From: Owenia fusiformis
Taxonomy: Eukaryota; Annelida; Polychaeta; Sabellida; Oweniidae
Assembly: GCA_903813345.2 (NCBI GenBank)
Contig: CAIIXF020000011.1
Span: forward strand, 8,776,842 to 8,840,841
Direction: 5' to 3'
DNA: 64,000 nucleotides
Positions 37,501 through 43,500 of this stretch are shown here, one piece after another; positions within the stretch are counted from its first letter, which is position 1; each line of letters opens with the position of its first letter. The notes under the pieces were generated by a model. That model had not been told where the DNA came from. It made no database searches and saw only the letters and a program-made list of their open reading frames with translations. The position numbers were made by a program, and so were the translations under genes.

Positions 37501-40500
37501 TTAATGATTTGCCATGTTGTCATGGTGATATAATGTGATGCATCATGGGAACATCTCATAGTTAGCCAAGGGTGGCTTTCAAAACGTTATTCAGCTATGA
37601 AATTAGAAAAAACATTAACATGTTTAGAAATTAAATTTAGAAAAAATACCACAAAAACAATCTGGTATAGTGGTTTAGAATAGACTTCCCGCTTTGTGTG
37701 ATATCAATACCTGAGTTCACCAAGTTTAAACCGCCTGCCAATCACCCCATAAATCATTTTGACTGGCACTTGGGAATTGCCCAATAGGTGTCAGCACATG
37801 CTAGATACTATCTGTCAGCAACTCCAATTTGTTATTTTAACATTCAACATTGAAAGGTGCTAACTAAGTAATCCAAGCTAAAATCCACTGAAGATTAAGA
37901 GGATGTAGTACTTATCCATGTCAAAAAGAATGATGTATTAATCATTTGATAGATTTGAACCATTATGTTTCAACATTTCATAACACATTCGAGAGCTAAG
38001 TCAACAGGAATATCTGAAAAAACTGTAAAATGCCAATCATTATGGGAAGACCACTTTTCATTAGATTCACCCTTTTAAATGCTTTAACAGAGTTGTTGAA
38101 CTTTTTGACACATTTGAAAGAAGAATTGGATTTCTTTAAATATTTTTGATAGTTATGACCATAAAGGTGATAGTTGATGACATCAGTTTTTTTTCATTCA
38201 TGAGATGGTTGGAGAGGGATTGTATATATCCTTAATTGTAAATTGTAACTTGTAAATTCCACTATTTTAAAGTAAATAGAACAGTAATACGTAAAGGGCA
38301 GTACAATTATTATCCCATCGAACGAAGATCGGAGGGATATAGGGAATGCCTCCGTCCGATTTTGTTCATATTTGAAATGTGAATACTATAAGCATGGCAC
38401 ACTGTCTAATGACATTTTTGCTAGTAGGTGGCCATTTTGAAAATTGGCCGTCATTTTGTTAAAATGCCTACTTAGAAGCATATTACACTTTTTGATGACA
38501 ATTTGGCTAGTGATCAATCATTTTGAAAATGATGGCCACTTTCTATGTGTTATTTTACGATTTTTGCTATATACTTCATTTGGAAAAATGCCAGCTATGT
38601 CTGTTCGATGGAATTTGCTACGCTTTGGCGTCGCTGTTGTCTAGTTTCTTAAAGATGTCATGAGTATACTTTACTTGAAACGGCAGCCCAATATTACATG
38701 AAATAATACAATACTTTGTGTGGGCAATGAGAATATTTGATGTTCCAACGGGATGTTTGTATAGTTATCATTTATACTGAATAAAACATTAATATATATT
38801 GAATCATTAATTAATGTGGATTTATACCGAATGAAATACCTGTCCTTTGAGCACCATATATACCAAACACCTGTTTCATGAACACTCTTCATAGATCACC
38901 TATTTCTTTGTTAACTACATCTATATATTCTAAAAGCTATAACATAAAATTTTCTCTTTGAATCTACTGATCAAGAAGTGTATACTAGAATGTTATAATT
39001 CTTATTCTCAAGGAAATGTTATATGCAGTTTCGAGCTGGATTTTGCTAAAATATCCAGGGTATGTGTCCCTCCAGTAGCCATATCTTTGGTTTGTGGCAA
39101 TATTTAAGCAAGGAGGAATGCTTAAATAGAGTCTCAGCTTTCCAATATTGCCAAAATCAAAGCAATCTGACAATTTGAAATGGATGTTTATTGCAGATAG
39201 ATATGACCCCTGATATGTGTTAATATATATGTTGATGTATTTAAGATTTTTTCTTTATATTTTCAGATGTCCCAATGGCCTTCCAAAGACAACACTCTCA
39301 GGAATAAGGTATGGCCTTTAATTCTTTTTTTCACAAAACTCTAAATGTGCAGATAGCAGCATTAATTGTTACTGATACTTGAAAAGATGGCAGCAGCCTA
39401 GTGGCATTATTTATTACTGTTTTTTCTGCTCTTTTAAAAGATGGCAGCATCTTACTGGTTCTAAAAACTGAGATGCAAGAATATTTTGTTGCAGAAAATA
39501 TGCAATTACAAATATGCAAATACAAAGATCTTTATGAAGATAATCTGATTTCCAATATTTAGGTATTTAACATTAGTACCCTATTTTGATCAGAAAGTTG
39601 TAACACAACTCATTTGTGAGTTAACGGTCAATTGTTACTAATTGTTTAGTTAATTGGATTCAAAAATTGATTCATGCAACATTTATATTTAAAATGTGTT
39701 ATGTTGAACCATTTAAAACCTGTATATCTGAAGACCTCTCAATGTAAATACCTGCTAATCCAAACATTTTTACTGGCCACAGTGTTGTTCGGATTAGACA
39801 GGTTTTATTGTATTTATGCACCTCAGCTGTCATACACCAGATCTCATTTTTGGACAGGAGACCCCTACCTCGCAAAAACTCATATTTCTATATTTCTTTT
39901 TATGATATACCATGATGTAACATAAAAAAGTACGGAATTCAATTATCTAAAATCATTCGCCACACCATACCTGCTCATTTTAGGGAATTAACTTACCTTC
40001 AGAATGAGGTGTACATGCATGTACTGTATGTACTTCATATTTCTTTTTTGTGTTGTTTTTTGCCTACCCTGTATGTTATGTTGTTATTTTTTCCCCCAAA
40101 AATTGATAGAAAAAGGAAAAAACTACATGTATATATTCTCTATTCCAGATGGTTAGTTGGTTCATCAGAGATCAGCAAAGAGGATTCCAACCAGAACTAC
40201 ATGTATATATTCTCTATTCCAGATCGTTAGTCGGTTCATCAGAGTTCAGCAAAGAGGATTCCAACCAGAACTACATGTAATAATTCTCTATTCCAGATGG
40301 TTAGTTGGTTCATCAGAGTTCAACAAAGAGGATTCCATCCAGAACTACATGTATATATTCTCTATTCCAGTTGGTTAGTTTGTTCATCAGAGTTCAACAA
40401 AGAGGATTCCAACCAGAGCTACATGTATATATTCTCTATTCCAGTTGGTTAGTATGTTCATCAGAGTTCAACAAAGAGGATTCCATCCAGAACTACATGT

Positions 40501-43500
40501 ATATATTCTCTATTCCAGATGGTTAGTATGTTCATCAGAGTTCAACAAAGAGGATTCCATCCAGAACTACATGTATATATTCTCTATTCCAGTTGGTTAG
40601 TTGGTTCATCAGAGTTCAACAAAGAGGATTCCATCCAGAACTACATGTATATATTCTCTATTCCAGATGGTTAGTCGGTTCATCAGAGTTCAACAAAGAG
40701 GATTCCAACCAGAACTACATGTATATATTCTCCATTACAGATGGTTAGTCGGTTCATCAGAGTTCAGCAAAGAGGATTCCATCCAGAACTACATGTATAT
40801 ATTCTCTATTCCAGATGGTTAGTCAGTTCATCAGAGTTCAGTAAAGAGGATACCATCCAGAACTACATGTATATAATCTCTATTCCAGATGGTTAGTTGG
40901 TTCATCAGAGTTCAGCAAAGAGGATTCCATCCAGAACTACATGTATATATTCTCTATTCCAGATGGTTAGTTGGTTCATCAGAGTTCAGCAAAGAGGATT
41001 CCAACCAGAACTACATGTATATATTCTCTATTCCAGATGGTTAGTTGGTTCATCAGAGTTCAGCAAAGAGGATTCCAACCAGAACTACATGTATATATTC
41101 TCTATTCCAGATGGTTACACTTGGTGAAATCAATAAAATAACTTATTTAGCAGTATATTAAACATTTTATTCTATATTATTTTAACTATTTTACCAAGTG
41201 TTAGTCGGTTCATCAGAGTTCAGCAAAGAGGATTCCATCCAGAACTACATGTGTATATTTTCTATTCCAGTTGGTTAGTTGGTTCATCAGAGTTCAGCAA
41301 AGAGGATACCATCCAGAACCACATGTATATATTCTCCATTACAGATGGTTAGTCGGTTCATCAGAGTTCAGCAAAGAGGATTCCATCCAGAACTACATGT
41401 ATATATTCTCTATTCCAGTTGGTTAGTCGGTTCATCAGAGTTCAGCAAAGAGGATTCCAACCAGAACACAGCCATTCAGAATTCTGCTCAAAATCAAAAC
41501 AAAACCTCAAAGCAAAGAGTTCCTAGCATAGAACTACCAGAATTCATGCAGCAACTTGTAGAGAAATTCAGGACATTTAAGAAACACCGCACGTGCCAAC
41601 ATAGACATTCCTGTCTCTCATATTGTTATGAAGTAAGCAATATTTTTCTGTTAAATCTCTCTGATTTCCACAAGTGGTGACATATTGTGATAGTCTCCAA
41701 CTTTTTTGTGGGTTGTGCTCAGCATATAGTGGATGGTGTTAGGCATATGGTGGATGGTGTTAGGCATCTATAACAAATGGCAGGTGGTGACATTTTGCAT
41801 GTTTATACCTGTTTAATATCTTCTTATTGAGTCTAACTGGTAAGAGAGCATCTCAAAAGTTCAATGTTGGATTGTAAACTCTATTTGCAGAGTTAATTTG
41901 TTACCCCCTCCCCCTATATTTTATTTTAGTTGATTTATATTTTATTTGCAGTGTTAAAGATACTCATGCTATAATAATATTAAAAATATCTGACCTTTCT
42001 TTATGACATCTATTACATGGCATGTCTATGTTGTTTATTTTCTGAACTTTTGTACTCCTATTTACAGAATCCACTAAAGCTGTTTGGTGTTGGCTATGCA
42101 ATCCAGGCTGGAGTGAAAGTCCTCGGATCTCTGAGTAAATTGTTCAGTAACCCTAGTGCAGTAGTCAAAGCATTAATAGACAGGAATAACCTTAATCTGG
42201 GGGCTTTCCTTGCCTCTTTTCTAGCAATTTATAGGGTAAGTATAGGCCTCCTGGCTTTCTTGTAATATATAAGAAAAGTATCACCTTCTTTGGCTCTTGC
42301 ATAGACCACAGTTATCATATACAGGGTGTCCCGAAAGTATGGGCCCCCCTAGGCAGACTTATATCAATGTCTCCATAGTATGTATCATATTAAAGCTTAT
42401 CCAAAGTTACATTGATTTGCCAAGTATCATTGTTCAACTCACAAATGGGAAAAAGTTACAGGCATTTCAAAAATTAGTGTTTTGCCAAAATTAAATGCTT
42501 TTCATATATTACCTTAAACACAGTTCAAATAGGGATGTGGCATTTTGTTATCCTCATGAAACCTTTTAAGGGCATTTTAGAAGAGTTTCCTTGGGGTATC
42601 TACCCTCAACATCATCTTTTTAGAACTCAATATCCATCCTTTCTTCAACAGTAGCACCCATATTTTTGGTCACATTCAGGTCAGGGCTGTTTCAATGATT
42701 CTGAAAAGAACTAAATTTTTGGCCAAACACTAAGTTTTGAAATGCCTGTAACTTTTTACCACTTGTGAGTTGAACCATGATACTTGGCAAATCAATGTAA
42801 ATTTGGATAAGCTTTAAACTGATATATGACACATACTATGGAGATATTGGTATATGTCTGCCTAGGGGGGACATACTTTAGGGAGACCCTGTACATACTC
42901 CCTCTGTAAAGAAAAAAGTGGTAACATATTGTTATAGTCACCATCTTTTTTGTGGACTGCTTTCGGTGGTTGTGTTCAGTAGTTGGTGTTCCATGTGTGG
43001 TGTCACATGTAACAAATGGCAGGTGGTGACATTTTGCATGTTATGTTAATACAGGTTCTAACTAATTCTAATAACTATTTCTAGGTTATGTGCTTGTGGA
43101 TATTTAAGATGACAACATAGAGAAATTTGAAACTAGAAAATGCTATCCCATCCTCTTTATCACCAAAAATTGTGTTAATCACTAGGAAATCTCTCAAAGT
43201 ACTCATGTCACTTGTTAAGCTTATACATTATATAGAAATAACATTTTTTGTTTGTATTGCATTATAGACAGTATTATGCAGTTTACGATGGATGAGGGAC
43301 CATGACAGTGAGGCCCATGGGCTAGTAGCTGGATTCCTTGCAGGATGGTCCATGGGCTTCTATAAGAGCACAACCATAGCGTTATACCTAGCATCTAAGC
43401 TAGCAGAGGTAATGTTATAGTCCCTAATACCCCTGCTCTATGGAACATCCTTATGAAACTGAAATATGAAATCATTGGATTGTTAGCTGATATATCATAA

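Follow-up and report, generated by a model that had tools for sequence, protein, structure and literature searches.

We analyzed a 64,000-nt stretch of the genome of the annelid Owenia fusiformis (contig CAIIXF020000011.1, forward-strand positions 8,776,842 to 8,840,841; hereafter the window) and found that a 74-bp minisatellite at 40121–41467 extends across the 3′ splice junction of a TMEM135 exon 214 nt long. Each repeat unit joins the last 28 nt of an intron to the first 46 nt of the exon, and the acceptor is thereby present 17 times in a row. We consider it probable that this is a minisatellite born at the junction which expanded and is tolerated, that its last acceptor is chosen by context and that transcripts leaking to the other acceptors decay. 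Minisatellites are defined as head-to-tail units of about 10–100 bp, a description that the array (74 bp, 17 units) fits. The initial annotation of this DNA had proposed 17 tandem acceptors in front of one TMEM135 exon, and both a repeat finder and a direct scan confirmed it. Tandem Repeats Finder reported a single array with exactly the limits 40121–41467 (period 74, 18.0 copies, 89% matches); we read the count of 18.0 as taking in an element inserted in unit 14. The direct scan returned 17 acceptors, one per unit, each with its AG, at a spacing of 74 nt throughout, the sole exception being 160 nt across the insert. The commonest form of the 28-nt intron-end part is AACTACATGTATATATTCTCTATTCCAG. 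The main features are as follows.

40121–41467, plus strand: minisatellite array, 17 head-to-tail units of 74 bp (each with 28 nt from the intron end and 46 nt from the exon start)
40148, 40222, 40296, 40370, 40444, 40518, 40592, 40666 and 40740, plus strand: acceptors of units 1–9 (G of the AG), direct scan
40814, 40888, 40962, 41036, 41110, 41270, 41344 and 41418, plus strand: acceptors of units 10–17 (G of the AG), direct scan
40148–41344 (first and last AG), plus strand: decoy acceptors of units 1–16, each leading to a premature stop
41391–41418, plus strand: productive acceptor region of unit 17, the same 28 nt as in 10 of the 16 decoys
39309–41418, plus strand: intron with the array, 2110 nt, its donor lying 840 nt before the first unit acceptor
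39267–39308, plus strand: TMEM135 exon directly before this intron, 42 nt, placed by acceptor, donor, phase and a weak tblastn match, with two spare bases AG
41419–41632, plus strand: productive TMEM135 exon, 214 nt, donor GAA/GTAAGC, placed by frame and neighbors
1511–1557, plus strand: candidate TMEM135 exon, the second upstream from the array exon, 15 codons plus 2 nt, donor CAG/GTAGGT
41118–41200, plus strand: inserted element in unit 14, resembling a miniature inverted-repeat transposable element (MITE), with TTA on both flanks and the terminal inverted repeat CACTTGG...CCAAGTG

The two spare bases AG that end the exon at 39267–39308 fix the reading frame of the array exon. This frame is supported by the candidate exon at 1511–1557, whose two final bases form an Arg codon with the first base of 39267, giving one open chain across both exons. 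When a human fragment was placed without gaps, the candidate ranked second (score 24, behind 26 at 25967), and it was the only top-row placement that we judged to end at a donor of the right phase. From acceptor 17 (41418) the frame stays open to the end of the exon and on through the downstream exons. In agreement with the earlier proposal that every acceptor but the last is unproductive, all 16 others (acceptors 1–16) run into a stop after 10–30 codons. That this stop would be a TAG in the next unit after about 25 codons proved right for 13 of the 16 decoys (TAG after 27 codons), the departures being units 2 (TAA after 19 codons), 13 (TGA after 30 codons, within the insert) and 14 (TAA after 10 codons). 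Acceptor 17 is likewise the single productive site only among the unit acceptors, since eight AGs outside the unit positions also leave the frame open (41292, 41304, 41316, 41352, 41364, 41376, 41445 and 41517); by eye, the tract before them is purine-rich.

The length of the exon would be 214 nt from unit 17, 288 and 362 nt from the next two acceptors upstream and 522–1484 nt from the rest. By the usual 50–55 nt rule, a stop lying that far before a junction sends a transcript to nonsense-mediated decay. Because the decoy stops sit 208–1404 nt before the exon end at 41632 (more than 50 nt in 16 of 16), decoy-spliced transcripts are predicted to undergo this decay, as the initial annotation had suggested in naming truncated protein or nonsense-mediated decay as their fate. 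As a side observation, the array holds 15 of the window's 39 plus-strand matches to TGTANATA, presumably a Pumilio-type motif, and decoy-spliced RNAs would have copies of it behind the stop.

The gene was identified by tblastn with the human TMEM135 protein as the probe. Seven matches lie in order along 39250–50929, five of them at E below 1e-4.

39250–39312, plus strand: tblastn match, 38% over 21 amino acids, E 0.44 (weak)
42074–42292, plus strand: tblastn match, 36%, E 1.6e-9
43277–43414, plus strand: tblastn match, 67%, E 5e-15
47551–47670, plus strand: tblastn match, 40%, E 3e-6
47996–48064, plus strand: tblastn match, 65%, E 6.6e-5
48576–48671, plus strand: tblastn match, E 0.008
50822–50929, plus strand: tblastn match, E 4.5e-9

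In this search the human probe gave no match to 41419–41632 itself. Further upstream on the same contig, the Pfam family TMEM135_C_rich (PF15982) has three matches, two over its cut-off and one under it at E 0.019. The exons downstream of the array exon, placed from tblastn and their boundaries, are these.

42068–42235, plus strand: next TMEM135 exon
43268–43408, plus strand: TMEM135 exon
47563–47661, plus strand: TMEM135 exon
47996–48063, plus strand: TMEM135 exon

Joined, the exons give a stop-free TMEM135-like chain, which also matches the Tim17 family weakly, under the family cut-off. We found no second TMEM135 copy in the genome by Pfam family, spliced-exon or protein searches. A retrocopy was sought with the spliced exons, for which all 22 matches fall within the TMEM135 locus, and with the protein, for which 16 of 17 matches fall within it and one lies elsewhere at E 0.885; neither search found one. 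Since no other copy was detected and the gene is intact downstream, full-length mRNA must still come from this locus, provided that the gene is in use in the animal. We also observed two alternative last exons (48578 onward and 50824 onward), both in frame behind 47996–48063, which would encode related but different C-termini.

The array is found once in the genome. A search with 131 of its bases in the 498-Mb assembly (525 contigs) returned 16 matches in one candidate region, all inside the array, and found neither a second copy nor a second haplotype; array length and copy number are therefore those of one assembly and one locus. When the whole array was used, 39 of the 40 scored matches among 126 candidates, the remaining one being the array itself, fell on approximately 41140–41209, which is the right two-thirds of the inserted element. 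The inverted arms of this insert (41117–41141 and 41177–41201) are 84% complementary, and it looks like a member of the MITE class. The 17 units share a mean pairwise identity of 94% (minimum 89%), and only units 12 and 13 are identical. The hexamer ending in the acceptor AG, previously given as TTCCAG in every unit, has this form in 15 of the 17 and is TTACAG in the other two. It is very hard to credit that the array is an artefact of assembly or read joining, even though tandem arrays are error-prone and a single assembly was seen, given that the units differ from one another, with one identical pair only, that a single unit holds an insert and that 1.35 kb is short for long reads.

We also compared the acceptors with each other. 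Across the 28 intronic nucleotides, 10 of the 16 decoys do not differ from unit 17 at any position. A pyrimidine share of 0.71 is found in 13 of the 17 units and one of 0.65 in the other 4; seven other TMEM135 acceptors range from 0.47 to 0.88. Given this identity and equal pyrimidine share, the unit acceptors are locally indistinguishable and the choice between them must come from context. Folding two units, to ask whether RNA structure could bring a distal branch point close, gave no gain in stability over shuffled sequences (z 0.93), of which 163 in 200 were as stable or more so. Acceptor-like CAGs, defined by at least 11 pyrimidines in 17, occur 18 times in the array and 166 times in 1600–39200, where their density is 4.4 per kb. 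TMEM135 introns are thus already rich in loose look-alikes, though these have no exon sequence behind them.

That all 17 copies keep the AG, as had been pointed out earlier, is correct but unremarkable. Variant cells over the 17 units amount to 48 of 1258, and chance alone would leave the 34 AG cells without change with P = 0.27; 40 of 73 neighboring column pairs are invariant. Of the 11 distinct changes within the 46 nt of exon origin, 8 are non-synonymous, when 77% would be expected without selection, and the exon part of the units varies as non-coding DNA does. Selection on the decoys was accordingly rejected as unproven.

Starting from the observed anatomy, frames, uniqueness and near-identity of the acceptors, we infer the origin of the array, the use of acceptor 17, the reason for this use and the decay of leaks as follows. 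The trinucleotide AAC is common to the intron (just before 40124) and the exon (41465–41467), and its presence at the first and last junctions of the array suggests a tandem duplication of the intron–exon junction, probably via this 3-base match. The duplicate would then have grown to 17 units, and a short inverted-repeat transposon would later have entered unit 14. Most likely the array is a neutral, tolerated accident of repeat growth. Acceptor 17 would be chosen by its context, as only unit 17 leads into a complete exon of 214 nt with its donor, while a decoy would be followed by 46 nt of exon and then by intron-like sequence. Transcripts leaking to the decoys would meet early stops and should fall to nonsense-mediated decay. 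Reed and Maniatis are said to have shown, in the original construct work of 1986, that exon length has an effect. In the part of a later report that deals with duplicated β-globin acceptor constructs, those in which 14, 55 or 205 nt of exon lay behind the upstream copy were spliced only to the downstream site (PMC5389562), which agrees with use of the last unit.

Several points weigh against this explanation. The same part of the β-globin report describes the duplicated constructs as spliced very inefficiently, whatever the length of the upstream exon (PMC5389562); to that extent, an exon-length context is not shown there. By analogy, the array may lower TMEM135 output or splicing efficiency. 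No match to the branch-site motif yUnAy is present in the 28 nt before unit 17, and one is present in the AG-free stretch of five of the seven other TMEM135 acceptors. Moreover, the choice of acceptor 17 is a prediction from sequence, and the decoys may be heavily used, as each combines a good tract and an AG with 46 nt of exon. In one alternative, the array is damaging, with most transcripts decaying and the allele weak or heading for loss. There are 16 decoys to draw transcripts away, and poor splicing is what the duplicated acceptors showed in the published constructs, as described in that part of the report (PMC5389562). Even so, we regard a damaging array as unlikely. The exons downstream of it remain open and resemble human TMEM135. 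At 94% identity between its units, the array cannot be very recent, and yet the gene is intact.

Slightly less likely still is the copy-number rheostat offered by the initial annotation, in which decoy use would be regulated, feed transcripts into decay and let array length set the level of TMEM135. The array would be suited to such a role in having 16 intact decoys, each with a stop placed to predict decay, and decoy acceptors locally as good as the productive one. The decoys, however, bear no sign of selection, as the chance-level invariance of the AGs and the non-coding-like variation of the exon part indicate, and the single assembly offers no view of copy-number variation. This option was therefore left without support, and tolerated noise, the second option put forward at the time, is the best fit.

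The possibility that the array clears itself appears very improbable. Every unit has a donor-like GTTAGT three bases after its acceptor, and a decoy used first could then be re-spliced from this donor to acceptor 17, at the cost of one extra in-frame codon. The combinations of unit acceptor, unit donor and later unit acceptor that keep the frame open are 16 of 816, all of them a 3-nt exon from units 1–16 followed by unit 17. In 15 of the 17 units, GTTAGT agrees with the donor consensus at 6 of 9 positions, as do five of the seven examined TMEM135 donors, and recursive splicing with a donor at the 5′ end of an exon is documented in Drosophila, in the part of a study concerned with such sites (PMC8605326). 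Nevertheless, GTTAGT derives from the coding sequence Trp-Leu-Val and was copied automatically; it lacks a purine at +3, and 145 of the 1971 GTs in the intronic stretch 1600–39200 match the donor consensus as well or better (at least 6 of 9). In all units the acceptor and the donor are 3 nt apart and not adjacent (AG/GT) as in ratchet points, repeated hops mostly end in a stop when worked by hand, and the productive exon has the same GTTAGT, which would need to be ignored. If the array did clear itself, mRNAs with an added ATG or TTG before TTGGTTAGTC would be expected, the distance that makes a decoy would also make it harmless, which would explain 16 intact decoys, and decay would take only what re-splicing misses.

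To place the tolerated array among known systems, we compared it with six of them. Like minisatellites inside introns, it consists of head-to-tail, point-variant units of tens of bases, but its unit spans a functional acceptor and part of an exon. Tandem alternative acceptors (NAGNAG and longer) also place several competing AGs ahead of a single exon; the TMEM135 sites, in contrast, are 74 nt apart, form complete acceptor regions and are unproductive in 16 of 17 cases. In poison exons and decay-coupled splicing, alternative use introduces a premature stop; splicing to the TMEM135 decoys would do the same, though such use and any regulation of it are hypothetical. The duplicated 3′ splice-site constructs of β-globin intron 1 likewise have identical acceptors in a row, the upstream one with a short piece of exon (14, 55 or 205 nt, and 46 nt in TMEM135); as that part of the report presents them, they are engineered and have two copies, while the TMEM135 array is natural, has 17 copies and lies in an intact gene (PMC5389562). 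Recursive-splicing ratchet points, as far as the relevant part of the study describes them, share a donor soon after the acceptor, so that a second splice could remove the decoy, but the TMEM135 units have three bases between the sites and a weaker donor motif (PMC8605326). Finally, a paper on intron gain by tandem duplication argues for decay as a shelter (PMC2809761). Local tandem duplication near splice signals is common to that process and to ours, but the TMEM135 array makes no new intron; it is the acceptor of an old intron that was multiplied.

We found no natural acceptor array of this kind in the open-licence literature. Full-text searches of that literature, outside which most subscription journals lie, also returned nothing for TMEM135 together with a minisatellite, in line with the earlier remark that no such description was known. 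Competition between identical acceptors has so far been studied on built constructs, and TMEM135 provides a natural experiment with 17 near-identical acceptors in one intron. Junction counts from RNA-seq would weigh distance, exon completeness and the downstream donor with the site held constant.

Splice-site-spanning repeats are not confined to TMEM135 in this genome. Two families supplied a sample of 55 exon loci (for protein kinases the best 30 of 144 matches, for ABC transporters every one of the 25), which we examined for arrays with a period of at least 12 within 60 bp of the matched exon. An edge repeat that includes the splice site was found in two of the 55, one at a donor and one at an acceptor.

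667–1472, minus strand (locus L029; G000:C11 near 19329697): donor array, 23-bp unit, 35 copies, starting at the donor of a kinase exon
1677–1738, minus strand (locus L045): acceptor array, 21-bp unit, three copies, repeating an acceptor together with ten bases from the start of an ABC exon

Both splice junctions are probably real, judging from the reading frames. The kinase exon resembles LATS/warts by eye. In its array, GTAAGT is kept in 12 of 37 sense-strand units, the first being the exon's own AAG/GTAAGT; the other 11 are decoy donors without the exonic AAG, and all 11 reach the same early stops. At the ABC locus, splicing to the additional acceptors would lengthen the exon by 41 and 20 nt, with a frameshift in each case. 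Its neighboring paralogue, L046, has decayed remnants of copies upstream of the same exon, which do not appear in the repeat-finder output near that exon.

Array cover in the flanks of the sampled exons is 5.7% (kinase) and 6.0% (ABC), and tandem arrays cover 15.4% of the window (intervals merged by hand); by these figures, two of 55 is about, or somewhat below, what chance placement would give. The two further cases suggest that in this genome it may be common for repeats to extend over splice junctions, and the question would then be testable many times. The anatomy at TMEM135 is real and unusual but less singular than it first looked, and it offers a clean case that is directly testable with RNA.

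We also counted splice motifs in close succession. Genome-wide, three GTAAGT in gaps of 10–40 nt occur 5808 times and the reversed pattern 6284 times, and three TTTCAG in gaps of 20–50 nt occur 7441 times and the reversed pattern 2376 times. In 293,070 bases (some loci overlap), TTTCAG occurs 380 times against 171 for its reverse (2.2-fold), and GTAAGT 158 times against 310 (half). Among the matches listed in these motif counts, a few large repeat families dominate. Given the frequency bias of the hexamers and this dominance, neither triplet ratio shows seeding or avoidance of arrays by splice motifs. The threefold excess of close TTTCAG triplets over the reverse is only partly explained by the hexamer's own frequency.

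Two further observations concern other arrays of the window. The arrays at 30409–30658 and 31287–33075 have a 75-bp unit, CCTCAGGATATACCC..., and by eye a look-alike of this unit lies just upstream of the tandem acceptors of the ABC exon (near 1800–1740, minus strand, on another contig). Finally, a 21-bp-based array at 44992–45882 flips into its own reverse complement near 45242, with GGCCCCCAGAAGCTATA units followed by TATAGCTTCTGGGGGCC units.

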